Shown piece by piece: positions 5,345 to 33,262 of a stretch of 33,262 nucleotides of DNA (the stretch's first letter is position 1; the number at the start of each line of letters is the position of its first letter). The notes below the pieces were generated by a model. It was not told the origin of the DNA. It searched no databases and was given only the letters and a program-made list of their open reading frames with translations. This DNA comes from Nitrobacter winogradskyi (GTDB taxonomy: Bacteria > Pseudomonadota > Alphaproteobacteria > Rhizobiales > Xanthobacteraceae). A program made the position numbers and the translations under genes. The stretch lies in the NCBI RefSeq assembly GCF_006539545.1, contig NZ_BJNF01000044.1:1-33262 (forward strand), in the 5' to 3' direction.

Positions 5345-7840
5345 ATGATGCGCTTGCTGCTGCGGTTCATGGGTTTTCTGTTTGCCGCGGGGACCATTCT
5401 GTTTCTGGTCGGGGTCGCGGCGGTCGCGGGATTGATCTGGCATTTCTCCCAGGACCTGCCGGAGTATTCCCAGCTTCAGAATTATGAGCCGCCGGTGATG
5501 ACGCGCGTCCATGCGTCCGATGGCTCGCTGCTCGGCGAATATGCGAAGGAGCGCCGGCTCTATCTGCCGATACAGGCCGTGCCGAAGCTGGTCATCAACG
5601 CGTTCCTGGCCGCGGAAGACAAGAATTTCTATGAGCACGGCGGCATCGATTATCAGGGCATGGCGCGTGCGGCGCTGCTTTATGCTCAGAACTACGGCAC
5701 CAACAAGAGGCCGCAGGGCGCCTCCACGATCACCCAGCAGGTTGCCAAGAACTTTCTTCTGACCAACGAAGTTTCCTTTGCCCGCAAGATCAAGGAAGCT
5801 CTGCTGGCCATGCGCCTCGAGCGCACCTATTCCAAGGACAAGATTCTCGAACTGTATCTGAACGAGATCTACCTCGGTCTTGGCGCCTACGGCATCGCGG
5901 CCGCGTCGCTCGTGTACTTTGACAAATCGGTCAACGAACTGAGCGTCGCCGAGGCCGCGTACCTCGCGGCCCTGCCAAAGGCGCCCTCGACGCTGCACCC
6001 CGTCAAGAACCGTGACCGCGCGATCGAACGGCGCGACTATGTCGTCGATCGGCTGCTGGAAAATGGCTGGGTCAACCAGGCCGACGCGGAAAAGGCTCGC
6101 AAGCAGCCGCTGATCGTCAAGGGCCGGTCCAACGGGGCGCATACTTTCGCCGGTGAATATTTTGCTGAGGAGGTTCGGCGCGATCTGTTCGAACGCTACG
6201 GCGAAGAAAAGCTCTACGGGGGTGGCCTGTCTGTCAGGACGACGCTCGACCCGGAATTGCAAGGGATAGCGCGCAAGACCATGGCCAATGGCCTCGTCAC
6301 CTATGACGAAGCTCAGGGCTGGCGCGGGCCGGTGAGCAAGCTCGACATCTCCGGCGACTGGGGGGTGAAACTCGCCGAGGTCAAATCGTTGTCCGATATA
6401 TCCCCATGGCGAATGGCGGTCGTGCTCGAGTCCGACGACAAATCGGCGCGGGTCGGCTTCCAGCCCGGACGCGAGCTTGGCGGCGCCGTAAGCCGCGAGC
6501 GGCGAACAGGTTTGATTACGCTCGACGGGGTGAAATGGGCCAAGGCCACATCCGGGTCGGCGCGAGGCCGTACGCCGACAAAGGTGTCTCAAGTGCTTTC
6601 GCCCGGCGACGTGATCTATGCCGATCCCCTGATCGCGAAGGACGGCAAGATCGTCGAGGGGGAATACCGGTTGCGCCAGTTGCCTGAAGTGTCCGGCGCG
6701 ATGGTGGCGATGGATCCGCGGACCGGCCGTGTGCTGGCAATGGTCGGCGGCTTCTCCTTCGATCAAAGCCAGTTCAATCGGGCAACACAGGCGTATCGGC
6801 AGCCGGGCTCCTCGTTCAAGCCGCTCGTCTATTCCTCGGCGCTCGACAACGGTTACACGCCTTCCACAGTCGTGGTTGACGCGCCGATCGAGATCGACCA
6901 GGGGCGCGGCTCGGGCGTTTGGCGGCCGGAAAACTACTCGAAAGAAAAATACTACGGTCCGCAAACGCTTCGAAATGCGCTACGGCTTTCGCTCAACACC
7001 GTTACGGTCCGCCTGGCGCAGGATGTCGGCATGCCGCTGATCGGCGAGTATGCCAAGCGCTTCGGCGTTTACGACGAACTGCCGAACTATCTGTCCTACG
7101 CACTGGGAGCCGGCGAGACCACGGTGCTGCGCATGGTGACCGCGTATTCGATGTTCGACAACGGCGGCAGGCGCGTGAAGCCGACCCTGATCGACCGCAT
7201 TCAGGATCGTTACGGTCACACCATCTACAAGCACGACGCGCGGGAGTGTCGCGGCTGCGAGGCGCCGGAGGGCTGGAAGAATCAATCCGAACCTCAGTTG
7301 ATCGACCACCGCGAGCAGGTGCTGGATTCAATGACGGCTTACCAGATCACCTCCATGATGGAGGGTGTGGTGCAGGCCGGTACCGCCACGGTGATGCGCG
7401 AGGTCGGCAAGCCGATCGCCGGCAAGACCGGCACGACCAACGACCAGAAGGATGCCTGGTTCATTGGATTCTCCCCTGACCTTGTCGTCGGCATCTATCT
7501 CGGATACGATAAACCTCGCAATCTCGGCCGTAAGGCGACGGGCGGACATCTGGCGGCTCCGATCGCGCGGGATTTCATGAAGGTCGCGCTTGCCGATAAG
7601 CCGGCCACTCCGTTCCGGATTCCTCCCGGCATCAAGCTGGTTCGCGTTGATGCCAAGTCCGGTATGCGCGCAGGCCCCGGCAGCGGCGGCAAGACGATCC
7701 TTGAAGCTTTCAAGCCTGGCACGGCACCGCCCGACAACTATTCCGTGATCGGCGTGGCTGATGCAGACGGACGCGAGCCGCAGCCGCTGCCCGATGCCGA
7801 CCGCAGCCTGTTCCGGCCCGGCACCGGAGGGCTTTACTAG
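5345..7840 (+). CDS. mrcA: Penicillin-binding protein 1A (class A bifunctional PBP)
   Basis: Inner-membrane peptidoglycan synthase with glycosyltransferase and transpeptidase activity. The 831-aa protein has a short cytoplasmic start and one membrane helix (about 7-34). The GT51 domain carries the catalytic glutamate E91 in AAEDKNFYEHGG, GASTITQQ at 125-132, and RTYSKDKILELYLNEIYLG near 160-178. The transpeptidase has SSFK at 489-492, SLN at 549-551 and KTGT at 694-697. A segment at about 320-450 between the two domains corresponds to the OB-like insert of PBP1A proteins. Two ATG codons are adjacent (5345 and 5348); I kept the first. The stop codon is TAG at 7838-7840, part of the CTAGAG terminus of a dispersed repeat that begins exactly there. 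Confidence 0.96.
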   Translation: MMRLLLRFMGFLFAAGTILFLVGVAAVAGLIWHFSQDLPEYSQLQNYEPPVMTRVHASDGSLLGEYAKERRLYLPIQAVPKLVINAFLAAEDKNFYEHGGIDYQGMARAALLYAQNYGTNKRPQGASTITQQVAKNFLLTNEVSFARKIKEALLAMRLERTYSKDKILELYLNEIYLGLGAYGIAAASLVYFDKSVNELSVAEAAYLAALPKAPSTLHPVKNRDRAIERRDYVVDRLLENGWVNQADAEKARKQPLIVKGRSNGAHTFAGEYFAEEVRRDLFERYGEEKLYGGGLSVRTTLDPELQGIARKTMANGLVTYDEAQGWRGPVSKLDISGDWGVKLAEVKSLSDISPWRMAVVLESDDKSARVGFQPGRELGGAVSRERRTGLITLDGVKWAKATSGSARGRTPTKVSQVLSPGDVIYADPLIAKDGKIVEGEYRLRQLPEVSGAMVAMDPRTGRVLAMVGGFSFDQSQFNRATQAYRQPGSSFKPLVYSSALDNGYTPSTVVVDAPIEIDQGRGSGVWRPENYSKEKYYGPQTLRNALRLSLNTVTVRLAQDVGMPLIGEYAKRFGVYDELPNYLSYALGAGETTVLRMVTAYSMFDNGGRRVKPTLIDRIQDRYGHTIYKHDARECRGCEAPEGWKNQSEPQLIDHREQVLDSMTAYQITSMMEGVVQAGTATVMREVGKPIAGKTGTTNDQKDAWFIGFSPDLVVGIYLGYDKPRNLGRKATGGHLAAPIARDFMKVALADKPATPFRIPPGIKLVRVDAKSGMRAGPGSGGKTILEAFKPGTAPPDNYSVIGVADADGREPQPLPDADRSLFRPGTGGLY

Positions 7841-7968
7841 AGCATGATCGCTTCTGATTGAATCAGAAGCGAAGCTCTCGATTGTTGTTCTGACGCTTTT
7901 TCTTCACGCGAACAGGTCACCATCCTCGGGTCAAGCCCGAGGACATGCTTCGCTCGAAAACGCTATAG
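7837..7968 (-). repeat. Dispersed palindromic element, copy A (reverse)
   Basis: Full-length copy. It runs CTAGAGC, then hairpin CGCTTCTGATT/AATCAGAAGCG, then an internal segment with TTTTTCTTCACGCGAA, then hairpin CCTCGGG-TCAAG-CCCGAGG, then TTCGCTCGAAAACG and a CTATAG end. I define the plus orientation as starting at GCGTTTTCGAGCG, so this copy is reversed. Its first bases form the TAG stop of mrcA. Confidence 0.85.
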
Positions 7969-8010
7969 GGCGTGATCCGATCACGGTTGAATCGACCATG
8001 CTCTCGAAAT

Positions 8011-8038
8011 TATTGTGTGGTCATTATTGTGTGGTCGC
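8011..8038. repeat. 14-bp tandem duplication between mrcA and prfB
   Basis: TATTGTGTGGTCAT is followed directly by TATTGTGTGGTCGC, 12 of 14 bases identical. The gap otherwise holds repeat copy A and about 125 bases leading to prfB with no clear promoter. Confidence 0.55.
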
Positions 8039-8163
8039 ATTTTCCTGCGGCGAGCGCGCGGTCTCTTCGGGTTTCACGTCCGACACGATTGCGCTTTGCG
8101 GGCTTCGCGGCTAAATCACACGCTGTTGTTGAATGAGGCGTAAGCCGGTGGACTTGAAAAGCT

Positions 8164-9295
8164 ATGCGCGCTGAAATCGAAAGACTTGTCGAAGAGATCA
8201 AGCAGTCGGTCGGGCTGCTGAGGAGGCATCTTTGACGTCGAAACATCAACCGCGCGCCTGGCGGAGCTGAACAAGCTCGCCGAAGATCCAGAGCTCTGGA
8301 ACGATCCCCAGAAAGCCCAGAAGCTGATGCAGGAGCGAACCTCCCTTGAGGATTCGCTGGCCGGCATCGGTAAGGTGGAGCGCGAGCTCGAAGATCAGAT
8401 CGAAATGATCGAACTCGGCGAGGTTGAGAACGATCAGTCCGTCATCGATGAATCCGAGAACGCCCTGAAAGCCCTCAAGAAGGAGGTCGCCCGCCGCGAA
8501 CTCGAAGCCTTGCTCTCGGGAGAAGCGGATCGCTTCGACACCTATCTGGAGGTTCATGCCGGCGCGGGCGGCACCGAAAGCCAGGACTGGGCTGCGATGC
8601 TTCTGCGCATGTATACGCGCTGGGCGGAAAAGCGTGGTTTCAAGGTCGAGTATCTGGAAGAGACGCCCGGCGAAGAGGCCGGCATCAAATCAGCGACGGT
8701 TCAGGTCAGCGGCCACAACGCCTATGGCTGGCTCAAGACCGAGGCAGGCGTGCATCGCCTCGTGAGAATCTCGCCGTTCGATTCCAATGCGAGGCGTCAT
8801 ACGTCGTTTTCGAGCGTAGCGATTTTTCCGGTTGTCGACGACAGCATCAAGATAGATATCAAGGAATCAGACGTCCGCACCGATACCATGCGCTCCGGCG
8901 GCGCAGGCGGACAGCATGTCAACAAGACCGAGTCGGCGGTGCGGCTGACGCACGTTCCGACCGGGGTCGCGGTGGTTTGTCAGGCCGGGCGCTCGCAGCA
9001 CAAGAATCGCGCGCAGGCCTGGGACATGCTGCGGGCGAGACTTTACGAGATCGAACTCAAGAGGCGGGAAGAGCAGGCCGCCGCCGATCAGGCCGCCAAG
9101 ACCGATATCGGCTGGGGCCATCAGATCAGATCCTACGTCCTGCAGCCCTACCAGATGGTGAAGGACCTCCGAACGGGCGTGCAGACCTCGGACACATCGG
9201 GCGTCCTCGACGGCGACCTCGACGACTTCATGGCGGCAACGCTGGCGCAGAGAGCTTTTGGCACCACGCCAGGTGCCGTCGAGGATGTCGAGTGA
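8164..9295 (+). CDS. prfB: Peptide chain release factor 2 (programmed +1 frameshift)
   Basis: RF2 terminates translation at UGA and UAA. The gene is two overlapping frames. A first frame from ATG 8164 encodes 22 codons ending AGG AGG CAT, then CTT followed by an in-frame TGA at 8233-8235. Shifting +1 on CTT continues at GAC 8234 into the main frame ([18 protein letters not shown]...) to the stop at 9293-9295. The fused product is 376 aa, normal for RF2. The PCRF domain occupies the first two thirds. The stop-codon recognition tripeptide SPF is at about 203-205 and the GGQ loop ([10 protein letters not shown]) at about 248-250, where glutamine acts in peptidyl-tRNA hydrolysis. SPF rather than PxT identifies RF2, not RF1. 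Reading only the long uninterrupted frame from 8327 would lose 54 N-terminal residues. Confidence 0.95.
8221..8236 (+). promoter_or_regulatory. prfB frameshift signal
   Basis: AGGAGGCATCTTTGAC consists of a Shine-Dalgarno-like AGGAGG, a 3-nt spacer, the slippery CTT codon and the poor-context stop TGA-C. This is the canonical RF2 autoregulatory arrangement (usually AGGGGGTATCTTTGAC in enterobacteria). When RF2 is scarce the ribosome pauses at UGA and slips +1 to make more RF2. Confidence 0.95.
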
Positions 9296-9304
9296 TCAGA
9301 CCAG

Positions 9305-9348
9305 TCTCAGACCTGGTTGCTCTCAGACCTGGCTGGTCTCAGACCTGA
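9305..9348. repeat. 16-bp tandem repeat, three copies, at convergent gene ends
   Basis: TCTCAGACCTGG recurs at 9305 and 9321, and TCTCAGACCTGA at 9337, a strict 16-bp period. The array fills the 43-nt gap between the prfB and DUF983 stop codons; the third copy contains the TGA stop and last codons of the DUF983 gene (minus strand). No classical T-tailed terminator is visible here. Confidence 0.75.
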
Positions 9349-9779
9349 TCGTCGACAAAATTCTCGTCAAAGCCGTGCATGCGGAGGGCCCACTGGAGGC
9401 CGACGACCGCACCCTTGATCGGCTGAATCAGCCATAGCGCCATGATCAGCGTCAACGGCAGATAGATCGCCCATTGAAGGATCAGCGGCGGAGCAAACGC
9501 TTTCTCGATCAGCAGCGCCAGCGGCACAACAATGTGGCCGACGACGACGATGACGAGGTAGGCGGGCAGGTCGTCGGCGCGATGGGGGGTAAAATCAAGT
9601 CCGCATTCCGAACAACTGTCGGCGGTTTTCAGAAAGGTACGAAAAAGTTTGCCTTGGCCGCATCTCGGGCAGCGGCAGAATAAGCCGCGCCTCATCGCGG
9701 CCCAGGTGTCGCGCTTTTCGCCTTCCGGGGTCCAGGTTTTGCCGGCTGTGCTCGCGGTATCGGGAGGAAGCGCGGTCAT
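9339..9779 (-). CDS. DUF983 membrane protein
   Basis: 146 aa. It resembles the DUF983 family, small membrane proteins of unknown function common in alphaproteobacteria. The N-terminal half carries two zinc-knuckle-like pairs, CRCPRCG (about 36-42) and CSECG (about 56-60). Two hydrophobic helices follow (about 73-92 and 100-120), and the tail is short and acidic. The start ATG overlaps the rnr stop by 4 nt (ATGA), indicating translational coupling as the last gene of the topA-rnr-DUF983 set. Its stop lies inside a 16-bp tandem array. The biochemical role is unknown. Confidence 0.85.
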   Translation of the reverse strand: MTALPPDTASTAGKTWTPEGEKRDTWAAMRRGLFCRCPRCGQGKLFRTFLKTADSCSECGLDFTPHRADDLPAYLVIVVVGHIVVPLALLIEKAFAPPLILQWAIYLPLTLIMALWLIQPIKGAVVGLQWALRMHGFDENFVDDQV

Positions 9780-15066: not shown

Positions 15067-15142
15067 TTTTAGTTGCCGCCCTCATGAAGGGGTGACGGAG
15101 CTATAAGCTTCGCCTTGGCATGATGTGAGGAGTTCTCGGGGG

Positions 15143-15390: not shown

Positions 15391-15483
15391 CTATCGTGTT
15401 TTCGAGCGAAGCGGATACCGGCTCACGCGAGGAAAATGCGTCATAATCAAAAAAATTATGGAGCCCCGTCTCTGGTTCTATTT
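15391..15483 (+). repeat. Dispersed palindromic element, copy B (decayed)
   Basis: GTGTTTTCGAGCGAAGCGGATACCGG and the following GCGAGGAAAATGCGTC match the 5' part of the element. The CCTCGGG hairpin is absent and the terminal TCTGATT hairpin is degenerate. It lies between two convergent genes. Confidence 0.6.
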
Positions 15484-15553
15484 GAGGCGTAAGCGCAAGT
15501 CCGAGCGAGCATTCCTCACGGCGGTCTTTTGATTCTGCCTGTCCGAAGATGCT

Positions 15554-16834: not shown

Positions 16835-16857
16835 TCGATAATACCTTCACGCCCCGC

Positions 16858-16990
16858 CTATAGCGTTTTCGAGCGAAGCATGTCCTCGGGCTTGAGCCCT
16901 AAGGATGGACGACCTGTTCGCGTGAAGAAAACGCGTCAAAATAACAATCCTGAGCTTCGCTTCTGATTCAATCAGAAGCGATAATGTCCT
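16858..16990 (+). repeat. Dispersed palindromic element, copy C (forward)
   Basis: Full-length forward copy: CTATAGCGTTTTCGAGCG, a CCTCGGG hairpin with a partly disrupted right arm, GCGTGAAGAAAACGCG, and the terminal hairpin CGCTTCTGATT/AATCAGAAGCG. It sits 24 nt upstream of the deacetylase start (divergent), so that gene's promoter may lie in or beyond it. The rest of the 294-base gap to 17129 shows nothing I can name. Confidence 0.85.
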
Positions 16991-17128
16991 AATTGCGTCC
17001 AAAACTAAAAGACCGGCGATGAACGCCGCCTTAACTGGTCGTGAACGAGGGTGCCTGTGCCGAGGCCGCGCGCGCATTCACTCGGGCTTAACGTCCATCG
17101 CCGACGATCTCTCGAATCGGAGGTGAGT

Positions 17129-18606: not shown

Positions 18607-18759
18607 GGCGCACTGACGGACTCTCTGCAAGAGCGATCAAAAATCTCCGCGGAGGGAGCCGGCCTCGGCCGTTAAGTGAAAGACATGACGCGCGATCCGT
18701 AACGGAATAGATGGATGGCGGTGATCGCGGCGCGATGTGCCGATGCGGGAGTAGAAACC

Positions 18760-19870: not shown

Positions 19871-19978
19871 AGACCCGAAGGGCCGCGCCAGCGCAAAGTG
19901 GAAACCGGCTTTCGGATAGGCTTGATCAAAAAGTTTAGGCTTGAGTCTGATTCAACGCAGTTGAACCAGACTCAAGCA
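19867..19978 (+). repeat. Sister-family palindromic element
   Basis: It has the same architecture as the dispersed element but diverged sequence: CTAGAG terminus, AAAGTGGAAACCGGCTTTCGG (compare GAAGTGGACACCGGTTCGCG in copy I), TGATCAAAA, then a long terminal hairpin. The hairpin arms are 19939-19956 and 19960-19977, 17 of 18 positions paired, with a 3-nt loop, and contain TCTGATTCAA as in the main family. No T-tract follows. Confidence 0.55.
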
Positions 19979-20117
19979 CGCATTCGGCAAAAAAAGTGAA
20001 CGCCGGTTTGCGATCGGAGTCCGCGCAGGCTGTTGATTGCGGGCCTCTTTTTCTTACCGCGAACGACGCTACATCTGGCGGGAACGTGCTCCTGAGATCA
20101 GCGCAGGGTAAGCTTGA

Positions 20118-20219
20118 GCCTTCCCGCTTCTGATTCAATCAGAAGCGGCTGGCTCTATGATTTTGATCTGATACGTTTTCTTCACGCGAACCTTATCTAC
20201 CTCGCGCGAAAATGCTACA
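20118..20219 (-). repeat. Dispersed palindromic element, copy D (reverse, short form)
   Basis: CGCTTCTGATT/AATCAGAAGCG hairpin, GGCTCTATGATTTTGATCTGA, CGTTTTCTTCACGCGAACC and CGCGCGAAAATGCTACA. It lacks the CCTCGGG hairpin, like copies B, G1 and I. The interval 19979-20117 between it and the sister element shows no gene. Confidence 0.8.
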
Positions 20220-20353
20220 ATGAGTTCCGGGTTCCGCTCACAACGGGCAGGTCGGACTGATTTCGGCGTGTTCCCGGATCATTGAATAGCCGGGCTGTAT
20301 CGGCATTTGCCGTTGTCTATGCTGGCCCACCGTTCTGCATGAGGGCATGGAGC

Positions 20354-21280
20354 ATGAACTGGGCCTGGGTGACATCACTCGATCAAGTCTGGCGCTCGTC
20401 TGCATTCCCGATGTGGCTGACGCTTGCCGGGGCGGTTTTCTTCGCGTTCATTGTATTTCTGACGCTCATCCGTGCCGAAAAGTCGGTCGCCAATGGCGTC
20501 TTGACCATCATCACGCTGCTCGCGATCGGAGTCGCGGCGGCGGTTGCGCTTCGCGCCTTCGAGGCGGATGGCAGCCGCTCGCTGGATTCGAAGAACTCCA
20601 GTGCCCGGTTCAACGTCGCGATACCGGCGTTATCGTGCATTGACGGGCTGGCCGGAGAGGTGGTCGAGGGCGCTTGCGAGAAGGCGCTGTTCGGGACGCC
20701 AGACGCGGCGGCCGCCGCCGTTTCCTACGCCGCTTCCGAAATCAGCAGGTTAAGATCGTTCGGCGCCGCCGCTGCGGACGGCAGCGTGGTTGCGCCGGAA
20801 TTGGAGACGCTGCGGCGGGCGATCGAGCGCGACCGCTACGGTCTGGTCGCCCATGTGCTGGTTGCGCGAGACCATTGCCAACCATCGGACTGTGCTGCTT
20901 TCCAGTCGCTGACTGATCACAGTCGGATCGCGGCAAACATGAAAGAGCAGCTCTATGAAAATCTGGTGACGCGTTATGCGTCATCCTGGAACGCGCCTGC
21001 GGCAGCGGCGCAGGCCGCTGCACCCGATACGCCGTCTGTTCCGGCGCTCGCATCGGAGCCGGCCGGCAATCCGACGACCATGGACTTTCCGACGGCCGAA
21101 TCCATTCCGCCGGTCAGCATCATGACGCCCGAGCCGGCGACGGGTACGGCGGCGGCGTCATCCTCGGCGGCCGCGCAGGCCGTCCCGAAGCCGCGTCCGG
21201 CCGCGAAGAAGCCGCATGCACCGAAGCCGCACGCGGCCCCGCCCGTCCGCCTTGCGCCACCACCGTCATCCCAGAACTGA
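20354..21280 (+). CDS. Membrane protein with Ala/Pro-rich tail, unknown function
   Basis: 308 aa from ATG 20354 (GAGGG about 9 nt upstream; an ATG at 20339 adds five residues). Two membrane helices at about 18-40 and 48-68. A middle domain (about 80-210) has four cysteines (SCIDGLAGEVVEGACEKALF and HCQPSDCAAF) that could form disulfides if it is periplasmic, and the TPDAAAAAVSYAASEISRL helix. From about 215 the chain is Ala/Pro/Thr-rich and ends in a Lys/His/Pro tail (AKKPHAPKPHAAPP). No family recognised. The stop TGA overlaps the start of the DUF1489 gene by one base. Confidence 0.75.
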   Translation: MNWAWVTSLDQVWRSSAFPMWLTLAGAVFFAFIVFLTLIRAEKSVANGVLTIITLLAIGVAAAVALRAFEADGSRSLDSKNSSARFNVAIPALSCIDGLAGEVVEGACEKALFGTPDAAAAAVSYAASEISRLRSFGAAAADGSVVAPELETLRRAIERDRYGLVAHVLVARDHCQPSDCAAFQSLTDHSRIAANMKEQLYENLVTRYASSWNAPAAAAQAAAPDTPSVPALASEPAGNPTTMDFPTAESIPPVSIMTPEPATGTAAASSSAAAQAVPKPRPAAKKPHAPKPHAAPPVRLAPPPSSQN

Positions 21281-21744
21281 TGATCCGTTCGACAGCTGCC
21301 GCCGACAGGCGCCTCAACCTGGTCAAACTCGCCGTGGGCTGCGAATCCGTAAAGGAACTCAGGGATTGGATCGCCGAACGTATGAAGCAGGCGACGCTGA
21401 AAGGCTTGCCGCGCCATCATATCCACATCACCAGGATGACACCGAAACGAGGCGAGGAGCTGCTCGCGGGCGGCTCGCTTTATTGGGTCATAAGAGGCGA
21501 AATTGCTGCCCGGGAGAAGCTGATCGGCATCGAACCCTTCCGCGACGGCGACGGTATTGGTCGATGCCGTCTGGTCATGCAGCCGAAGGTGGTTACCGTC
21601 AGACCGCGCCCGATGCGCCCCTTTCAGGGGTGGCGTTACCTGTCCGTCGCTGATGCTCCTCCCGACCTCGGAAGCAACGCTGCGAGCGTCGCAGAGATGC
21701 CAGAGCCGCTGCGCCGCGAGTTGCGCGATCTGGGGTTGCTATAA
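21280..21744 (+). CDS. DUF1489 family protein
   Basis: 154 aa. Matches DUF1489, an alphaproteobacterial family of unknown function: LNLVKLAVGCESVKELRDW, HITRMTPKR, GGSLYWVIRGEI, a region around RCRLVMQPKVV, and the RPFQGWRYL motif. Overlaps the previous gene as TGATG, so translation is coupled. Convergent with panC, stops 34 nt apart. Confidence 0.88.
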   Translation: MIRSTAAADRRLNLVKLAVGCESVKELRDWIAERMKQATLKGLPRHHIHITRMTPKRGEELLAGGSLYWVIRGEIAAREKLIGIEPFRDGDGIGRCRLVMQPKVVTVRPRPMRPFQGWRYLSVADAPPDLGSNAASVAEMPEPLRRELRDLGLL

Positions 21745-22630: not shown

Positions 22631-22701
22631 TGCTGCTCGTTGGATAAGTTCCAGGGACGGGGGCGGCCGCAAGCGCGGCTACGGGGAGAACGCAGCTTAA
22701 C

Positions 22702-22798
22702 CTATAGCGCTTTCGGGCGAAGCATGTCCTCGGGCTTGACCCGAGGATAGTATTCGGTTCGCGTGAAGAAAACGCGTCAAAACATAAAGAAAGATAGA
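22702..22798 (+). repeat. Dispersed palindromic element, copy E (forward, lacks 3' hairpin)
   Basis: CTATAGCGCTTTCGGGCGAAGC, a perfect CCTCGGG-CTTGA-CCCGAGG hairpin, GGTTCGCGTGAAGAAAACGCG and TCAAAAC. The terminal TCTGATT hairpin is missing. About 72 bases upstream of the panC start. Confidence 0.85.
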
Positions 22799-22921
22799 GT
22801 CTTTCACCGTATCCATGAAGCAGTGAAAAGCAGGGATCAACCTGACAACCGCGCGATTTGATCAGGCAGCCGGCCTCTTCAGGCCATGCACCCTGCTTGA
22901 ATTATCAGCGGTTTGCGCCAC

Positions 22922-23060
22922 ATAGAGCCTTCCGCCTCTAACTCTGACAAAGATCAGAAGCGCGGTTTTATGATGTGGACGCGCTTTCTTGGTTCTTGAC
23001 GCGAACCGATACCGTCCTCGGGTCAAGCCCGAGGACATGCTTCGTTCGAAAGCGCTATAG
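22922..23060 (-). repeat. Dispersed palindromic element, copy F (reverse)
   Basis: ATAGAGCC, a degenerate CTGACAAAGATCAGAAGCGCGG hairpin, TTCTTGACGCGAACC, a perfect CCTCGGG-TCAAG-CCCGAGG hairpin and TTCGAAAGCGCTATAG. It opposes copy E, so E and F form a long-range inverted repeat across the panC to VWA gap. It ends 24 nt before the VWA gene. Confidence 0.85.
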
Positions 23061-23084
23061 TGCATTGATCCCTTGTGAGTCTCG

Positions 23085-23852
23085 ATGGCCTACGATCCGG
23101 AGCCGCCGAAACGTTCCCCAAATCCGACGATCTGCCGGACCCCGCCGTCCGGCGGGAACGCTCCGCTGCCTGACATAAAGTCATCTTCGTCCGATATCGC
23201 CGCGTTCGTCGCCAAGGCGCGATCGATGTCGCCTTATGCGTCAGACGGCCGTGGCAGGCTGTTGTTCGCGCTCGACGCCACCATGAGCCGGCAGCCGACC
23301 TGGGACATGGCTTGCACCCTTCAGGCGGACATGTTTCGCGAAGCGGTCGGCATCGGCAGCCTCGACATTCGCCTTGTCTATTACCGGGGACTCGACGAAT
23401 GCCGTTCCAGCGGCTGGATATCCGACAGTGCGAAGCTCGCAAGGTTGATGAGCACCATCGATTGCCGCGGCGGCAACACTCAGATCGGCAAGGTTCTTTC
23501 GCACGCGCGCAGTGAAGCGGTTGCGTCCGGCATCAAGGCCGTCGTTTTCGTCGGTGACGCGATGGAAGAATCGGTGGACGACCTTTGCGCGAAAGCGGGA
23601 GAACTGGGGCTGCTGAAAGTGCCCGTTTTCATGTTCCAGGAAGGACATGATGCGATGGCCGAGCAGGCTTTTCGGGAAATCGCGCGGCTGACCGGCGGCG
23701 CCTGGTGTCGGTTCGATCCGGGCGCGGCGACCCAGCTGCGCGAACTGCTTCGTGCGGCGGCGGCTTATGCGGTGGGCGGCCGGGAGGCCTTGCGGCGGTT
23801 GTCGACGACCGTAACAAGCGCGACCCGGCTATTGGGACAGATGAAATCCTAG
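23085..23852 (+). CDS. VWA-domain protein
   Basis: 255 aa, no signal peptide. Residues 1-45 are Pro/Ser-rich and probably disordered; a von Willebrand factor A-like fold spans about 55-235. The MIDAS is a variant, DATMS (D64, T66, S68) in place of DxSxS, after the strand GRLLFALD; the later acidic strand is VVFVGDAMEE. LMSTIDCRGGNTQIGKVL probably supplies the middle MIDAS threonine. Function unknown; VWA proteins of this kind often act with chaperone-like partners, and a J-domain gene follows 267 nt downstream in the same direction. The TAG stop is part of the CTAGAG terminus of repeat copy G1. Confidence 0.82.
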   Translation: MAYDPEPPKRSPNPTICRTPPSGGNAPLPDIKSSSSDIAAFVAKARSMSPYASDGRGRLLFALDATMSRQPTWDMACTLQADMFREAVGIGSLDIRLVYYRGLDECRSSGWISDSAKLARLMSTIDCRGGNTQIGKVLSHARSEAVASGIKAVVFVGDAMEESVDDLCAKAGELGLLKVPVFMFQEGHDAMAEQAFREIARLTGGAWCRFDPGAATQLRELLRAAAAYAVGGREALRRLSTTVTSATRLLGQMKS

Positions 23853-23954
23853 AGTTTTTCCGCTTCTGATAGAATCAGAAGCGGGCTCCATGATTTTGGT
23901 TTGACGCGTTTTCTTTACGCGAACCGGTATCCACTTCGCTTGAAAACGCTCTAG
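23849..23954 (-). repeat. Dispersed palindromic element, copy G1 (reverse, short form)
   Basis: Bounded on both sides by CTAG (23849-23852 and 23951-23954). Contains CGCTTCTGATAGAATCAGAAGCG, CGTTTTCTTTACGCGAACC and TTGAAAACGCTCTAG. Its left terminus forms the stop codon of the VWA gene. Confidence 0.85.
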
Positions 23955-24025
23955 CCTCTCCGAGCGAAGCATGTCCTCGGGCTTGACCCCAGGGGATGGA
24001 TACGCTTGCGTGAGCAAACGCTTCC
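23955..24025 (+). repeat. Dispersed palindromic element, copy G2 (forward, partial)
   Basis: CGAGCGAAGCATGTCCTCGGGCTTGACCCC, then GCTTGCGTGAGCAAACGC, a diverged form of the GTGAAGAAAACGC segment. Directly abuts G1 in opposite orientation, giving a head-to-head composite. Confidence 0.7.
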
Positions 24026-24119
24026 AGAGTGCTTTCATGCCGTAGCACGGAACGTAGCGCTGCTATGCCGCCGCATACGGGCGCTTTCGTTGACGGCGTA
24101 GAGCTACTATTTGTTCGCC

Positions 24120-25017: not shown

Positions 25018-25142
25018 GATAAAGCGCATCCTCGGGCTCGCCCCGGATGAACATCGGTTCCCATGAGGGAAAACGTGTCGCATCAACATGAAAGCCCAGC
25101 TTCTGATTCCATCAGACGCTGGGCTCTCAATTCTGGTGTCAC
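25018..25142 (+). repeat. Dispersed palindromic element, copy H (diverged)
   Basis: CATCCTCGGGCTCGCCCCGGATG hairpin, CGGTTCCCATGAGGGAAAACGTG, then the terminal hairpin CCCAGC-TTCTGATTCCATCAGACGCTGGG with new GC-rich arms. Lies in the 321-base gap between convergent genes; the first 170 bases of that gap (24843-25016) show nothing recognisable. Confidence 0.65.
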
Positions 25143-25163
25143 GTATGACTGCGGGCGGGGCGA

Positions 25164-27245: not shown

Positions 27246-27298
27246 CTTGACAGGACGGCGGGTACTCCAACCCCGTCAGGTGACGATAAGGAATCATC

Positions 27299-27637
27299 AT
27301 GACCAAGATCGAAGACATTCAGCAGCAGGGTAAAGAGCAGTTCGACGCCGCGGTCACGACCGCGAGCGGTTTTCAGAAAGGCATTCAGGAGATCGCTGTA
27401 GCCTTCAGCGATTACTCGCGAAAGTCGTTTGATGACGGCAGGGCATTCACCGAGAAGCTCGCCGGAGCGAAATCGCTGGATCAGGCGATCGAGGCGCAGA
27501 CCGTGTATGCCAGAACCGCCTACGAGACGTTCGTCAGCGAGTCACAGAAAATCGGTGGACTCTACGTTGACCTCGCCAAGCAAGCCTATAAGCCGTTTGA
27601 GGATTTTACGGCGAAGTTCGTTCCGGACGCCCGCTGA
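27299..27637 (+). CDS. Phasin family protein
   Basis: 112-aa amphipathic helical protein of the Phasin_2 type, which coats polyhydroxyalkanoate granules. All-helical sequence without Cys or Trp: DIQQQGKEQFDAAVTTASGF, SDYSRKSFDDGRAFTEKLAG, QTVYARTAYETFVSESQKIG, ending KPFEDFTAKFVPDAR. AAGGA lies 6 nt before the ATG. Transcribed alone: its own promoter and paired operators lie upstream, an intrinsic terminator downstream. This indicates that the organism stores PHA or PHB. Related small phasins can also act without granules. Confidence 0.92.
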   Translation: MTKIEDIQQQGKEQFDAAVTTASGFQKGIQEIAVAFSDYSRKSFDDGRAFTEKLAGAKSLDQAIEAQTVYARTAYETFVSESQKIGGLYVDLAKQAYKPFEDFTAKFVPDAR

Positions 27638-27668
27638 TACCCAGGGCAAGGGCCCCGAATATAAGCGT

Positions 27669-27699
27669 AGCCCGGCCGCAGTTTTCGGCCGGGCTTTTT
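27669..27699 (+). terminator. Intrinsic terminator of the phasin gene
   Basis: Perfect 10-bp stem AGCCCGGCCG/CGGCCGGGCT, 7-nt loop, then TTTTT. It begins 31 nt after the phasin stop codon. Confidence 0.93.
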
Positions 27700-27704
27700 G
27701 TTGG

Positions 27705-27811
27705 TTAGAGCGTTTTCGAGCGAAGTGGACACCGGTTCGCGTGAAGAAAACGTGTCAAAACAATATCATAGAGGCCCGCTTCTGATCCAGTCAGAAGCGG
27801 AAAGGCCCTAG
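27705..27811 (+). repeat. Dispersed palindromic element, copy I (forward, short form)
   Basis: TAGAGCGTTTTCGAGCGAAGTGG, ACACCGGTTCGCGTGAAGAAAACG, TCAAAACAATATCATAGAG and terminal hairpin CCGCTTCTGATCCAGTCAGAAGCGG, ending in CCTAG. No CCTCGGG hairpin. Inserted between the phasin terminator and the end of the TadG-like gene. Confidence 0.85.
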
Positions 27812-27818
27812 CGCCTCG

Positions 27819-29534
27819 CTATTTGGCGATGCGGAGTTGCGAGATTTGCGTGAGGATGTTCTGAAAAGCGTCGGCGGTCTGGTTAGCCGAGGTGATCATC
27901 TGGAAATTTCCGTTGGAGGCGCAGTCCTGTAGCACCTGGGATAACGGATCCCTGTTGCCGACATTGACCTGGACGGTGAAAATGACGGTGCCGCTGTCCT
28001 TGACCTTCTGACATAGCAGCGCCTGCCGCGCATCGACCTCTGGCGAGTGGTCGCTTCCGTTGCCTGACCAGCGGTTCTGGGTGTTCAACCCGTCTGACAA
28101 GAGAACCAGATAGTCCTGATAGACATATGCTTTATCCTTGGCGGGAGCCGGGAAGGGACCGTTCGTGGTACTTAGCGTCTGCCATCCCCAGGCGAGGCCG
28201 ATGGCCTGGTTCGTACTTCCGCTGGGCGACATCGAGTCGATCTCGTTCTTCAGAGTACTCGATTGAGAACTCACGGGGGTAATCGTGGCTGGAAGACAGC
28301 CGTTCAACTGTTCGGCGTAGAACTTCGTGGAGGGTTTTCCATTGCTGCCCGAAGAGGGATCGGCATTGGAAATGTCGTAGTTCTGATCGCGGTCGTTGAT
28401 GCAACCGGTCCAGCCGCCATCGGCTTCCGCTGCCGATGGCCGGGGAGCGGCGGGGGCGGCGGCTGAATCTCCGGGGCTGTCCGTATCGCGCCAGGGGTGC
28501 AGCACCTGGGTGCAAACCCGGTTCCGACCGCTCCCGCTGCAGGCGCAGTACTGTGTGGATCCGCAGCTCGCACCTGATCCCGAAGCGATGGTTTTTGTCA
28601 CCGTCCGGTAGCATCCGTTGTAAAGAACACCGTTCTTGCCCGGGATCTTCCTGCCGCTATCCGCGCTCGGGCAAATGTATCCGGCGTACCTTCCGCTGGA
28701 AGGAATTCTGGAGGCGCTTCTGGCTCCGCTTAAGGTTGCCGGACGATCGGTGCAGGTGAAACCGTGGTTATTGTTGGTGAATGGGCAATTCGAGTCGGCA
28801 ATGGTGGCGTCCCAGTTGCTCGGCTTCGAGTTCTTGAGGATCGGGGGTTCGTCCAGCCACTCTGACCAGCTAATCCATGATGCGCTGACGTTGGAAGTTC
28901 CAACGTTGACGTCCTTTGCGAACGGAACGATCGAAATGTAGACGTCGTCGGCGGTTTTGGCGAATGCCGACAGCGAGTCGATCATGTCTTTGGCCGCCTT
29001 TTGCAACGCGGCCATCTTGCCGTTGTCTCGCATCGACCCGGTGTTATCGAGGACCAGGGCGACCCTCATCCGCGAATTACCCCATGTGGACGTGGAACTG
29101 GTACCGAAGCTGAGTTGCGGAAAGCCGGCGATTTTCATGAAATCGGTTTTGATCGCGCCTTGTCCGGAGGCGAGGATCTTCGCCGCCGCCGCCGATGACG
29201 TGCTCGGGGTATAGGTCGCGCCTACGCTGACATTGAATGCGCTTTTGTCATTATAAAGTGAGTTAAAGTAGCGCTGCACCGCGTCGGTGATCTGCTGGGA
29301 GGTCATGGCCGGGTTGGCCGCGGCGTCCCTGGAAACCATCAGCACCGCCGAATCCATAGCCGCCTGCATCGATGAGCGGGCTGCGTTCGCCCGCGTATAA
29401 TCGACAGCAGCGCCCACAAAGCCCAGCACCGGCAGAAGCGCGATCGCGAAAATAGGCGCGATGTTACCTCGGAAATCCCGATCAAAACGCCTGATCGAAC
29501 TGCGAATCCGTTTGCAAGTTGACGTCCCAGACAT
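27819..29534 (-). CDS. TadG-like pilus assembly protein with VWA domain
   Basis: 571 aa from ATG 29534; the frame extends to a TTG at 29648 but the conserved TadE/TadG start lies here. Residues 20-47 (FRGNIAPIFAIALLPVLGFVG, then AAVDYTRA) are the TadG-type N-terminal membrane segment. A VWA domain follows with MIDAS DNTGSM at 163-168. A long insertion (about 240-440) carries about ten cysteines (such as CGSTQYCAC, GCINDRDQNYD, NGCLPATI), plausibly disulfide-bonded outside the membrane. The domain resumes with YQDYLVLLSDGLNTQNRW and ends VIFTVQVNVG ... QISQLRIAK. TadG proteins serve tight-adherence Flp pili, but no other tad gene is in this window, so the partner apparatus is unknown. Confidence 0.85.
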   Translation of the reverse strand: MSGTSTCKRIRSSIRRFDRDFRGNIAPIFAIALLPVLGFVGAAVDYTRANAARSSMQAAMDSAVLMVSRDAAANPAMTSQQITDAVQRYFNSLYNDKSAFNVSVGATYTPSTSSAAAAKILASGQGAIKTDFMKIAGFPQLSFGTSSTSTWGNSRMRVALVLDNTGSMRDNGKMAALQKAAKDMIDSLSAFAKTADDVYISIVPFAKDVNVGTSNVSASWISWSEWLDEPPILKNSKPSNWDATIADSNCPFTNNNHGFTCTDRPATLSGARSASRIPSSGRYAGYICPSADSGRKIPGKNGVLYNGCYRTVTKTIASGSGASCGSTQYCACSGSGRNRVCTQVLHPWRDTDSPGDSAAAPAAPRPSAAEADGGWTGCINDRDQNYDISNADPSSGSNGKPSTKFYAEQLNGCLPATITPVSSQSSTLKNEIDSMSPSGSTNQAIGLAWGWQTLSTTNGPFPAPAKDKAYVYQDYLVLLSDGLNTQNRWSGNGSDHSPEVDARQALLCQKVKDSGTVIFTVQVNVGNRDPLSQVLQDCASNGNFQMITSANQTADAFQNILTQISQLRIAK

Positions 29535-29961
29535 GGCTGACACCGATCCGTTGGCTCCAGCCGCATTTCGGACATCCCGGCTAAACGTGTGGTAAAGTTG
29601 TCCTGAGAAAGCAGGTAAATAGCCGCACAAATTGCGGCAACTGTTCAAAATGCTTATCCATCGTCAACCGATCATGAACAGGAGGATCTGACATTCGGGG
29701 AAGGCAGGAGGGGTTGGTTAACCATCCCCCCACAGTCGACCGCAGCAATTACGATCTTGCGGTGAGGCCAATACAAACCCATACTTAATCCGTCCGGGCC
29801 GGCCGACAGTCAGATAAGACGGGGCGGCCCTGATATGTTGCCTGAACTACGTTTGCCTGGACTGAAGTGGCGTGCGGTCTCCTTGCCGGCTCCATCGTTT
29901 GTCCTGGCAAGAAATCGACGCCTGAAAACATTGAATGCTGAAGACATCGAACGCCTGAGCC
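29535..29961. other. Divergent gap between TadG-like gene and clpS
   Basis: About 430 bases without a convincing gene; short frames on either strand look like chance. The only signal I note is TTAACCAT at 29718-29725, a described CtrA-associated half-site motif, inside the imperfect palindrome GGTTGGTTAACCATCC. Confidence 0.4.
29718..29725 (-). promoter_or_regulatory. Possible CtrA half-site upstream of the TadG-like gene
   Basis: TTAACCAT occurs about 185 nt upstream of the TadG-like start codon, on the plus strand. This 8-mer is known as a CtrA-associated motif in Caulobacter, and pilus genes are frequent CtrA targets. A single 8-mer is weak evidence. Confidence 0.25.
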
Positions 29962-30036
29962 ATGCTGAAGCCGCCCGTCATTCAAACACCCGAAACGTCC
30001 GTGCTGCCCGTGAGCAATAACCGTTCAGCACCGAGA

Positions 30037-30372
30037 ATGAGTGAAGACGAGGACGACCACGCCGCTGGCCGTGGCGATCCGGCCGCTTCGGTCATCACCA
30101 AAGTCAGGACAAAGACGAAACGTCCCAATCTCTATCGTGTGCTCATATTGAATGATGACTACACACCGATGGAGTTCGTCGTTCACGTCCTTGAGAAGTT
30201 CTTTCAAAAGGATCTGGAGGCCGCTACCCAGATCATGCTGCACGTTCATCATCATGGTATCGGCGAATGCGGCGTGTTCACTTACGAGGTCGCCGAAACC
30301 AAGGTCACGCAGGTGATGGATTTCGCGCGCAAGCACCAGCATCCGCTGCAATGCGTGATGGAAAAAAAATAA
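30037..30372 (+). CDS. clpS: ATP-dependent Clp protease adaptor ClpS
   Basis: Adaptor that binds N-degron substrates and delivers them to ClpA. 111 aa from ATG 30037 (MSEDEDD), the typical length; an ATG at 29962 in the same frame would add 25 residues of unconserved sequence. Flexible N-terminal part, then the ClpS core: [20 protein letters not shown] (acidic N-degron pocket), [21 protein letters not shown], and [13 protein letters not shown] at the C-terminus. Followed by clpA in the same direction after 249 nt, the normal pairing. Confidence 0.94.
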
Positions 30373-30621
30373 GCGCATCGATTCGCAAAAACGGAACGGA
30401 TATTTCGCGGCTGCCCGGATTCGCGATGTTCCGCGCCCGGCTCGGTTGAGCATAATCGCCATGCGCGTCTGTCGGCGAGAGCCTCGCCGCGCGCGATTTT
30501 CTTGGCGGAAGACGGACCCTTTTCCTCCGGATATTGTACGACTATATTGTTGACATAAGGTTGTTGTTGCCTGACGGGGCGATGGCGATCATGATGGCCA
30601 AGAGACCCTAGAGGACGCGCA

Positions 30622-33027
30622 ATGCCAACTTTTTCTCAAAGCCTGGAACAATCCCTGCATCGGGCGCTCGCAATTGCAAACGAGCGTCATCATCAATACG
30701 CCACGCTCGAACACCTTTTGCTGTCGCTGGTCGACGATTCGGATGCGGCAGCGGTTATGCGGGCTTGCAGCGTCGATCTCGACAAGCTGCGCGGCAGCCT
30801 CGTGAATTATCTCGAGACCGAATTTGAAAACCTGGTCACGGCGGAAGCCGCTGACGACGCCAAGCCGACCGCCGGTTTCCAGCGCGTGATCCAGCGGGCT
30901 GTGATTCATGTGCAGTCGTCCGGCCGCGAGGAGGTGACTGGCGCCAACGTGCTGATCGCGATTTTCGCGGAGCGAGAGAGCCATGCCGCCTACTTCCTGC
31001 AGGAGCAGGACATGACTCGCTACGACGCGGTGAATTACATCAGTCATGGCATCGCCAAACGCCCCGGCGTTTCCGAAGCGCGGCCGGTGCGCGGCGTCGA
31101 CGAAGAGACCGAAACCAAGAGCGGCGACGACGCCAAGAAGAAGGGCGACGCGCTCGACACCTACTGCGTCAATCTGAACAAGAAGGCGCGGGACGGCAAG
31201 ATCGATCCGGTGGTCGGGCGAAATGTCGAGATCAGCAGGGCGATCCAGGTGCTATGCCGTAGGCAGAAGAACAACCCGCTCTTTGTCGGCGACGCCGGTG
31301 TCGGCAAGACCGCGATTGCCGAAGGGTTGGCGAAACGCATCGTCGACAGTGAAGTTCCCGAGGTGCTGGCGGCCGCGACCATATTCTCGCTCGACATGGG
31401 AACGCTGCTGGCGGGCACACGCTATCGCGGCGACTTCGAGGAGCGGTTGAAGCAGGTGCTCAAGGAACTCGAAGCACACCCGAACGCGGTTCTCTTCATC
31501 GACGAGATTCACACGGTGATCGGCGCGGGAGCGACGTCCGGCGGCGCGATGGATGCTTCGAATCTGCTCAAGCCCGCATTGGCGTCGGGAACGATCCGCT
31601 GCATGGGCTCGACCACCTACAAGGAATACCGGCAGCATTTTGAGAAGGATCGCGCGCTGGTCCGCCGGTTCCAGAAGATCGACGTCAATGAACCGTCGGT
31701 CGAGGATGCCATCGCCATCCTCAAGGGCCTCAAGCCGTATTTCGAGGACTACCACAAGCTGAAATACACCAACGATGCGATCGAGGCGGCGGTGCAGTTG
31801 TCGTCCCGCTATATTCACGACCGCAAGTTGCCCGACAAGGCGATCGACGTGATCGACGAATCCGGCGCGGCGCAGATGCTGGTGACTGAGAACAAGCGGA
31901 AGAAGACGATCGGGATCAAGGAAATCGAGACCACGATCGCGGCCATGGCCCGGATCCCGCCCAAGAGCATGTCGAAGGACGATGCGGAGGTTCTCAAGCA
32001 TCTCGAACAGACTCTCAAGCGTGTCGTGTTCGGACAGGATCGCGCGATCGAGGCTCTGACGGCGTCGATCAAGCTGGCGCGCGCCGGCTTGCGCGAACCG
32101 GAGAAGCCGATCGGTTCCTACCTGTTCTCCGGCCCGACCGGCGTCGGCAAGACGGAGGTCGCCAAACAACTTGCGGAGGCGCTCGGCGTCGAACTGCTGC
32201 GCTTCGACATGTCCGAATACATGGAACGGCACACCGTTTCACGGCTGATCGGTGCGCCTCCCGGCTATGTCGGCTTTGATCAGGGCGGCCTGCTGACTGA
32301 CGGCGTCGATCAGCATCCGCATTCGGTGGTGCTGCTCGATGAAATCGAGAAAGCGCACCCGGATGTCTATAATGTGCTGTTGCAGATCATGGATCACGGC
32401 CGGCTCACCGATCACCACGGCAAGCAGGTCAACTTCCGTAACGTGATCCTGATCATGACGACCAATGCGGGCGCCTCGGACATGGCCAAGGCTGCGTTCG
32501 GCTTCACGCGCAGCAAGCGGGAAGGGGACGATCGCGAGGCGATCAACCGCCAGTTCTCGCCTGAGTTCCGTAACCGGCTCGATGCCGTCGTTTCGTTCGG
32601 CCATCTCAGCACGGACATCATCGGCATGGTGGTCGAGAAGTTCGTGTTGCAACTCGAAGCGCAGCTTGCGGATCGTTTTGTAACGATCGAGCTTTCTGAT
32701 ACGGCCAAGTCCTGGCTGGTCCAGCATGGCTACGACGAGCAGATGGGCGCCCGGCCGATGGCGCGGGTGATCCAGGAGCACATCAAGAAGCCGCTCGCAG
32801 ACGAGGTGCTGTTCGGCAAGCTCAAGGGTGGCGGCCACGTTCGCGTTGTTCTGGTCAAGGACGAAGCGGTCGCGGGCGTTGATCTCGAGAAGATCGGCTT
32901 CGAGTTTATCGAAGGGCCGGTCACGCCGAAGCCCGAGAACCTTCCGGGCGCGCGCAAGCGGACACCACCGCGCAAGCCCAGGCCGGACGGCGGAGGACTT
33001 ACGTCGGAGGAGCCGCTTAAGGTCTGA
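30622..33027 (+). CDS. clpA: ATP-dependent Clp protease ATP-binding subunit ClpA
   Basis: Hsp100 unfoldase that feeds substrates to ClpP. 801 aa. The N-terminal Clp_N repeats (1-145) dock ClpS. The first AAA+ module has GDAGVGKT at 223-230 and VLFIDEIHT at 290-298; the second has GPTGVGKT at 504-511 and VVLLDEIEKAH. There is no coiled-coil middle domain, which separates ClpA from ClpB and ClpC. The ClpP-contact loop appears as AAFGFTRSK, with FGF where E. coli has IGL. The C-terminus carries an extra basic, proline-rich tail (ARKRTPPRKPRPDGGG). GAGGA lies about 6 nt before the ATG. The 249-nt gap after clpS includes an AT-rich stretch (30529-30570) with TTGACA at 30550, but no matching -10 in register, so I do not call a promoter. 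Confidence 0.96.
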   Translation: MPTFSQSLEQSLHRALAIANERHHQYATLEHLLLSLVDDSDAAAVMRACSVDLDKLRGSLVNYLETEFENLVTAEAADDAKPTAGFQRVIQRAVIHVQSSGREEVTGANVLIAIFAERESHAAYFLQEQDMTRYDAVNYISHGIAKRPGVSEARPVRGVDEETETKSGDDAKKKGDALDTYCVNLNKKARDGKIDPVVGRNVEISRAIQVLCRRQKNNPLFVGDAGVGKTAIAEGLAKRIVDSEVPEVLAAATIFSLDMGTLLAGTRYRGDFEERLKQVLKELEAHPNAVLFIDEIHTVIGAGATSGGAMDASNLLKPALASGTIRCMGSTTYKEYRQHFEKDRALVRRFQKIDVNEPSVEDAIAILKGLKPYFEDYHKLKYTNDAIEAAVQLSSRYIHDRKLPDKAIDVIDESGAAQMLVTENKRKKTIGIKEIETTIAAMARIPPKSMSKDDAEVLKHLEQTLKRVVFGQDRAIEALTASIKLARAGLREPEKPIGSYLFSGPTGVGKTEVAKQLAEALGVELLRFDMSEYMERHTVSRLIGAPPGYVGFDQGGLLTDGVDQHPHSVVLLDEIEKAHPDVYNVLLQIMDHGRLTDHHGKQVNFRNVILIMTTNAGASDMAKAAFGFTRSKREGDDREAINRQFSPEFRNRLDAVVSFGHLSTDIIGMVVEKFVLQLEAQLADRFVTIELSDTAKSWLVQHGYDEQMGARPMARVIQEHIKKPLADEVLFGKLKGGGHVRVVLVKDEAVAGVDLEKIGFEFIEGPVTPKPENLPGARKRTPPRKPRPDGGGLTSEEPLKV

Positions 33028-33031
33028 GCCA

Positions 33032-33104
33032 TTGCGTTTTCGAGCGAACCATATCCTCCAGCTTGACCCGAGGATGGACGCCGATCGCATGAAGAAAACG
33101 CGCT
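33032..33104 (+). repeat. Dispersed palindromic element, copy J (forward, partial)
   Basis: TTGCGTTTTCGAGCGAACCAT, then CCTCCAGCTTGACCCGAGG (one hairpin arm damaged), then CGCATGAAGAAAACGCG. It starts within 5 nt of the clpA stop codon. The terminal hairpin is absent. Confidence 0.8.
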
Positions 33105-33130
33105 AACAAGCGCTCCGGTGAATAAACAAA

Positions 33131-33157
33131 ACGGCCGGCACGTAATGTGCCGGCCGT
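33131..33157. terminator. Terminator hairpin downstream of clpA
   Basis: Perfect 11-bp stem ACGGCCGGCAC/GTGCCGGCCGT with a 5-nt loop. On the plus strand only TTTG follows. On the minus strand the stem is followed by TTTTGTTT, so it would end transcription better for a gene coming from the right; probably bidirectional. Confidence 0.75.
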
Positions 33158-33240
33158 TTGCGTGCGCGGAACCCAGGCGCTCCAGATCACGATAATCTCG
33201 GATCAGGATTGCTCCGGATCATATTCAAGAAACGGTTCAG

Positions 33241-33262
33241 CCTAGAGCCTCGCTTCTGATGT
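33241..33262 (-). repeat. Dispersed palindromic element, copy K (cut by window end)
   Basis: CCTAGAGCCTCGCTTCTGAT matches the left end of reverse-oriented copies such as A. The rest lies beyond the window. With copy J it would form another inverted pair around the terminator. Confidence 0.6.

Follow-up and report, generated by a model that had tools for sequence, protein, structure and literature searches.

RUP of Streptococcus pneumoniae, as the passage on it in PMC3049150 describes it, is a repeat of about 107 bp with tips like those of the insertion sequence (IS) IS630-Spn1, and its mobilisation in trans has been proposed. Here we analysed contig NZ_BJNF01000044.1 of Nitrobacter winogradskyi (33,262 nucleotides, the whole contig; hereafter the window), which carries 11 copies of a short palindromic repeat. 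Comparing sequences made it very probable that the repeat is a family of non-autonomous, TA-targeting miniature inverted-repeat transposable elements (MITEs) mobilised in trans by transposases of one IS630 subgroup. The original prediction, made from the window alone, had proposed a family of MITEs or of repetitive extragenic palindromes (REPs) and bacterial interspersed mosaic elements (BIMEs). Its MITE half stood, with many copies, IS630-like tips, presence or absence between congeners and TA in the cleanest empty sites.

Abundance, ends and IS630-like tips

Repeat finding, extraction and alignment recovered the 11 copies in both orientations and with a fixed order of parts that includes an optional CCTCGGG hairpin, in agreement with the predicted ten or more. 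A scan of the window against Rfam at gathering scores gave no match. In a covariance-model search, 10 of the 11 were among 18 matches at E ≤ 5.1e-5, three of the ten scoring weakly (30.4, 26.7 and 24 bits); the truncated copy at 23947 was not among the 18. These scores are partly circular because the model alignment contains five window copies. The repeat has further support, since the model matched 150 or more copies across the window's genome and the core is present in other genera. These matches (the best 150 of 2306 candidates) all had E ≤ 5.6e-10; 77 were on the plus strand and 73 on the minus strand, and 102 were shorter than 120 bp, with 48 of 120 bp or more. Of the 150, 147 spanned 100–143 bp and three were shorter still, far too short for a transposase: the element is short and non-autonomous, as a MITE is. 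A set of few copies limited to this region is thereby ruled out, and by extrapolation the genome would hold several hundred, decayed ones included.

The model also matched relatives: 53 of 121 genomes sampled across the order, the window's own included, at E ≤ 1e-6 (at most 31 best candidates scored per genome), and 3 of 76 in a wider sample of the class, one being the own genome. Many weaker matches are likely to be sister families. An exact core 30-mer occurred in at least 119 stretches; among 80 listed, most were from Bradyrhizobium and others from Nitrobacter, Tardiphaga, Bosea, Pseudolabrys and Roseiarcaceae. In keeping with Nitrobacter as the source, the ClpA encoded in the window was 97% and 94% identical, over two pieces, to its counterpart in the Nitrobacter record of L065, compared with 92% for a Bradyrhizobium, 91% for Tardiphaga and 93% for a Hyphomicrobiales bin. 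Copies from other genera were chosen by an exact 30-mer in the first hairpin module (module 1), so conservation of module 1 among them is partly due to that choice; module 2 lay outside it. Module 1 occurs twice in tandem in the Bradyrhizobium copies L072 (62 bp apart) and L099. No already named repeat family was matched in the sequences searched, which did not include those of Rhizobium-specific intergenic mosaic elements (RIME) and Bru-RS of Brucella.

The element begins with a target TA and the tip GAGCGTTTTC, followed by the module 1 hairpin, the linker GTCAAAACAA, the module 2 hairpin (starting with TAGAGC and ending with GCTC) and a second target TA. Most elements are 105–138 bp long. 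The short form is about 107 bp, and the long form, of about 130–138 bp, carries within the module 1 loop a further hairpin of about 26 bp, the stem-loop CCTCGGG-CTTGA-CCCGAGG. The majority sequence of 86 copies (29 own loci, three further window copies and 54 from other taxa) was CTAGAGCGTTTTCGAGCGAAG-(optional module, about 26 bp)-TGGATACCGGTTCGCGTGAAGAAAACGCGTCAAAACAA-nAAT-CTAGAGCTTCGGTTCTGATTCAATCAGAACCGAAAATGCTCTAG; in most own-genome copies the module 2 hairpin read CGCTTCTGATTCAATCAGAAGCG. Copies from several genera had sharp ends, TA-GAGC...GCTC-TA, and aligned sequences diverged immediately beyond the two TAs, so that the boundaries are best read as TA/GAGC...GCTC/TA.

IS630 transposases (DDE_3) gave 3 matches in the window's genome and 29 in the congener G004, where multi-copy alignment placed IS ends at TA-GAGCATGATGAGTTT and TA-GAGCGGGATGGGTTT. 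A TAGAGC...GCTCTA pair 0.8–1.5 kb apart was found at 19 of 59 IS630/DDE_3 loci, compared with a mean of 2.1 and a maximum of 7 in 200 shuffles and with 0–2 for 11 permuted tips. The pair spanned 950–1100 bp at 18 loci (about 12 distinct IS types); that listed for locus L217 probably uses a neighbouring element. When the loci were ranked by similarity to two reference transposases, all 18 fell in the top 25, a cut set after the list was seen, and none among the 34 others.

Three IS630 types carried the tips of the repeat, TAGAGC(G/A)TTTT, at both ends: L227 (TAGAGCGTTTTCC/TAGAGCATTTTCC), L200 (TAGAGCATTTTCC/TAGAGCGTTTTCC) and L197 (TAGAGCATTTTTC/TAGAGCATTTTCC). The first two matched the commonest tips of copies from other genera over 12 bases at both ends, the G/A difference included, and the L200 genome (G038) also had 23 model matches. 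Copies from other genera end mostly in TAGAGC(G/A)TTTTC; among 65, the 5' tip read TAGAGCGTTTTC in 38 of the 45 matched and the 3' tip TAGAGCATTTTC in 12 of the 23 matched. For an L197-type IS, both ends were present in the window's genome (C115:14335-14661, 96%; C120:10693-10838, 95%), each with TAGAGCATTTTCCGATC, as were two internal pieces of that IS (89% and 74%). Five transposase pieces had IS630 as their best NCBIfam name, and two of these passed its cut-off. Thus the element and IS630 have 12-bp terminal inverted repeats in common, more weakly in own-genome copies, and an IS630 with matching tips is represented in the same genome by two ends on two contigs. Candidates for the autonomous transposon with the same ends, which the original prediction had proposed looking for, are some IS630 elements elsewhere and the IS whose two ends lie here.

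Target preferences also agreed. In 98 copies examined, the base before the 5' TA was C in 51 and T in 12 of 72, and the base after the 3' TA was G in 53 and A in 7 of 61; the 18 IS pairs had C before TA in 17 and G after it in 18. In the mechanism we propose, transposases of the IS630 subgroup, whose own ends read TA-GAGC(A/G)TTTTCC, would bind the matching element tips, excise the element and integrate it at Y-TA-R sites, most often CTAG, as a rule duplicating the TA. With TA-GAGC tips on every element, incoming elements and IS630s could land on old ones and give abutting and mosaic copies. A MITE borrowing an IS enzyme would thus account for the spread of such repeats. In G004, the IS630 copies L212, L217, L221 and L224 were seen by eye to lie directly against element TA tips from these families, as though IS630 preferred such tips as targets there.

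Copies in the window and their counterparts in congeners

The copies and related features of the window are as follows.

7837..7969, minus: copy A, long form with the CCTCGGG module inside the loop; same length in G004
15391..15492, plus: copy B, short form, decayed
16857..16993, plus: copy C, long form; orthologous G004 gap without a copy (flanks 92–95%)
19876..19977, plus: sister family 2 (TAGAGCATGATCCCG type), a decayed copy
20107..20224, minus: copy D, short form
22701..22802, plus: copy E, long form without the module 2 hairpin
22922..23062, minus: copy F, long form; G004 copy at the same place without the CCTCGGG module
23847..23957, minus: copy G, short form
23947..24027, plus: copy H, long form, truncated; adjoins copy G with a common CTCTAG tip
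25018..25127, plus: copy I, decayed, CCTCGGG-like module present
27703..27812, plus: copy J, short form, layout well preserved
27706..27717, plus: 5' tip of copy J (TA + GAGCGTTTTC), compared with IS630 tips
27708..27756, plus: predicted module 1 hairpin of copy J
27769..27810, plus: predicted module 2 hairpin of copy J, a module with covariation in the alignment
33027..33109, plus: copy K, long form without the module 2 hairpin
33241..33262, minus: 3' end of another copy, truncated where the contig stops

Alignment bore out the predicted loss of whole modules: the copies given as 15391, 20118, 23849 and 27705 lack CCTCGGG, and those given as 22702 and 33032 lack the 3' hairpin. The partial copy predicted at 33241 does read as the 3' end of another copy; since the contig ends inside it, at 33262, such repeats may break the assembly. 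All copies had been called intergenic, and they do lie mostly between genes, except that copies A and G overlap the final bases of open reading frames (ORFs) and supply their TAG stops (ORFs 5345-7840 and 23085-23852, respectively). The gene upstream of copy G ends in ...QMKS, with the stop from the element; its counterpart ends in ...QMKLAP in four congeners (G002, G003, G005 and G006) and in ...QMK in three (G004, G007 and G008). Insertion of copy G likely shortened this gene, which is not proved because relatives without the LAP ending exist.

For gene context we used 431 kb of the own genome, a non-random sample of long contigs, one contig picked for its matches and the window. Of 74 model matches at E ≤ 0.01, 63 were used and 11 antisense, partial or duplicate ones were left out; we kept 54 main-family copies, and blastn gave 19 of sister family 2. 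By gene calls made crudely for this analysis (ORF 21280-21744 was missed), 46 of the 54 overlapped called genes by at most 15 bp, compared with 18% of random intervals, a location that would result from the loss of insertions within genes. Among 45 classed copies, 23 were in tandem, 12 in divergent and 10 in convergent gaps, about as intergenic bases are distributed (49,268, 21,803 and 14,748 bp, respectively). In tandem gaps, 8 lay on the gene strand and 15 on the opposite one, which is no clear bias; we thus found no signal of gap-type or strand preference in the sample. Five pairs among 73 elements abutted, all overlapping by 5–6 bp in model coordinates.

We compared 30 main-family copies in two regions with G004: five were absent there (window copy G and a third variant at C2:37815 being counted among them), 12 had the same length, eight had another length and five were without colinear flanks. 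For 13 sister-family copies the corresponding numbers were five, four, two and two. The empty orthologous gaps that the original prediction had suggested seeking are thus present in G004; TA stands in the empty site in 3 of the 10 absent cases, and several others fit poorly. The clearest is C2:4669-4801 (main family), where the own sequence reads GTAGT-TA-GAGCG...GTTC-TA-ACTCCC and G004 reads TGGC-TA-ACTCCC. The sister-family site at C2:140773 is exact (own GGACTC-TA-GAGCATG...GACTC-TA-GTTC; G004 GGACTC-TA-ATTT), and TA is clean in both. G004 also carries elements absent from the window's genome. These comparisons suggest that the elements move, or have moved. The CCTCGGG module itself differs between orthologous copies in one case, copy F and its G004 counterpart.

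Other repeats also differ between the two genomes. The G004 gap orthologous to window positions 18641-18681 has a run of an approximately 15-bp repeat (GACATGGCAAATGAA) that is absent from the window, and a CGTC-type REP region at C2:199188-199323 (CGTCATGCCCGG...CCGGGCATCCACGTC) is absent in G004.

Fold, sister families and alternative explanations

Five strands were predicted to fold below shuffled controls (z of -3.4 to -8.0; 0–2 of 200 shuffles as good). In alignment A2 (83 of 98 listed copies plus three window copies), the structure we had named ourselves had 82 cells changed on both sides compared with 26 in shuffles, and 93.9% of cells paired compared with 30–43% with the partner slid. 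Further pair types were not clearly above shuffles (36 versus 33.6; 58 of 500 as high), and an RNAalifold prediction had 15 pairs, four of them changed on both sides, with a small covariation term. Module 2 accounted for all but one of the 82 double-changed cells, with, for instance, a change from G-C to C-G in 31 sequences. Module 1 was nearly invariant, in part because copies were selected by it. In most of the 12 G038 copies the arms differ (GTGCTTC/GAAGCAC; AGGGTC/GACCCT), and GTGGAAACCGGTT, AAAATCAAA and GATTCAATC persist despite the changed arms.

The plan is the same in sister family 2, whose arms are GAGCATGATC/GATCATGCTC; at the equivalent position, some of its copies carry an insert of their own. 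Its members (TAGAGCATGATTCCGAAAAGTGGAAACCGG...) include L173:773-877 and the window copy at 19876-19977, and it matched 56 plasmid records, 41 of them from Rhizobium. This family appears to resemble RIME1. A third variant, at C2:37815-37924 (L167:17815-17924), starts with TAGAGCATCGGACCC and is absent in G004.

The module 2 compensation and the arm changes in G038 and sister family 2 show that the palindrome persists although its letters change. The transposase or a role in RNA may require the fold, or template-switch repair of quasi-palindromes, which can yield compensatory changes, may restore it. The tips differ between branches as well: TAGAGCRTTTTC in the main family and TAGAGCATGAT in sister family 2, whose 5' tip equals one end of a high-copy G004 IS630. 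A further possibility, which we think less likely than not, is that the elements are one branch of a superfamily of double-hairpin MITEs bounded by TA that spans the order and might take in RIME and Bru-RS. In it, every branch would imitate the tip of its own IS630 variant, with stem arms rewritten complementarily around constant loop and linker motifs. The tip would then track the transposase, and the fold would be a second required transposition signal beside it; sister families with rewritten arms let one ask whether the fold matters for transposition.

A repeat of the REP/BIME type, moved around the genome by a REP-associated tyrosine (Y1) transposase, would share the palindromes, the mostly intergenic location, the many copies and the mosaics, and the optional stem-loop resembles the CGTC REPs described from alphaproteobacteria. 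Those REPs, in the passages that define them, have a terminal CGTC (or TGTC, CCTC), a stem of 8–9 bp, a loop of 4–5 bp and mostly a CCA tail. By eye, the CTTGA loop of the optional hairpin fits, but no CGTC head, CCA tail or free-standing copies were seen for it. The same passages report CGTC repeats without association with a transposase gene. Of the hairpin's matches, 15 of 18 in the own sample lay in copies or copy-like context, the other three being unlike the element. Of 17 matches in other taxa, seven sat in the same module 1 loop; we accordingly rejected a recent REP invasion as the source of this module. We also rejected movement by a REP-associated transposase because no Y1_Tnp (PF01797) match was found in the genome or in 7 of 8 congeners; with tips that are bounded by TA and inverted, that half of the original prediction fell, and we consider this explanation highly improbable. 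An RNA-level regulator under selection (a terminator, mRNA stabiliser or processing site) would suit the stable predicted folds and the compensatory changes in module 2, and Br-REP1 and Br-REP2 of Bradyrhizobium are reported to be transcribed in the relevant section of PMC5082802. We nonetheless regard it as unlikely: gap types closely follow the intergenic base share with no clear strand bias, some copies are absent in a congener, template-switch repair could also produce the compensation, and the tips shared with IS630 would be left unexplained. Br-REP1 was itself rejected as the same element on sequence, its 20-mer occurring twice in the loci compared.

A MITE could also owe its movement to another TA-targeting family, such as an IS5/IS427-group element like IS711 of Brucella, which is reported, where its targets are described, to use YTAR and to favour palindromic Bru-RS repeats. 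The 12-base matches of the L200 and L227 types and the IS630 with such tips in the own genome speak against this, and we give it very little credence. Several observations nevertheless weigh against an IS630 partner and TA duplication. Our transposase-end survey covered IS630 loci, and these are not independent, several being copies of one IS. The partner IS in this genome consists of two ends on two contigs, with no intact copy assembled. Element–IS similarity ends after about 12 bp; own-genome 5' tips read TATAGCGTTTTC in 17 of 22 matched, and the 3' tip pattern fits 6 of 33 own copies, one of them TAGAGCATTTTC. Four of the 54 sample copies have more than half of their length within genes, as crudely called. 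Among the absences in G004, the third variant at C2:37815 keeps TA with flanks that differ in length; C2:55798-55907 has the exact length with TC in place of TA; and the sister-family sites C2:30729 (exact length, substitutions at TA) and C2:117571 (empty site does not fit) depart from a clean site, C2:50915 and C2:89039 being only partial absences. Copy C is an insertion whose empty site has no visible TA, and copy G has no true empty site because another element begins there in G004. Mobilisation by an IS630-subgroup transposase remains the reading that we prefer.

Comparison with known systems

No paper matched in a text search with a 14-base core, and text searches of open-licence literature showed no paper on the element's sequence or on an IS630 link of such repeats in the order. 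For a widespread repeat that was not found named in the literature searched, the analysis gives the ends, proposes a target rule and puts forward a candidate partner enzyme. The defined ends permit better annotation, and MITE mobilisation can be tested directly in a group with RIME-like repeats.

Other intergenic repeats of related bacteria provide the nearest comparisons. RIME are intergenic repeats of rhizobia, likened here by description only, as is Bru-RS, described as a palindromic intergenic repeat of 103–105 bp and a hot spot for a YTAR-targeting IS; both are likely kin of the element. Br-REP1 and Br-REP2 are intergenic palindromes from the same bacterial family, but their consensus sequences, as printed in PMC5082802, are unlike the element.

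Correia elements of Neisseria, in the description given in PMC3898611, are likewise short (100–155 bp) and without a transposase, with a TA duplication such as we propose here, but have 26-bp inverted repeats and a suggested partner, IS1106, of the IS5 family. BOX of S. pneumoniae is likewise a modular composite with a variable middle, clustered with and inserted into other repeats (PMC3049150, passage on BOX); it differs in its proposed partner, ISSpn2, and in that the optional module of the Nitrobacter element sits in a hairpin loop. RUP, likened by description, shares the size of about 107 bp, the IS630-family-like tips and the proposed movement in trans; it is called a simple repeat in that account, whereas the Nitrobacter element is built with two hairpin modules, to which a third may be added. 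MITEs with IS-like tips and TA duplication are an ordinary, known kind, of which the element, with a clean TA in few of its empty sites, is most probably a widespread representative.

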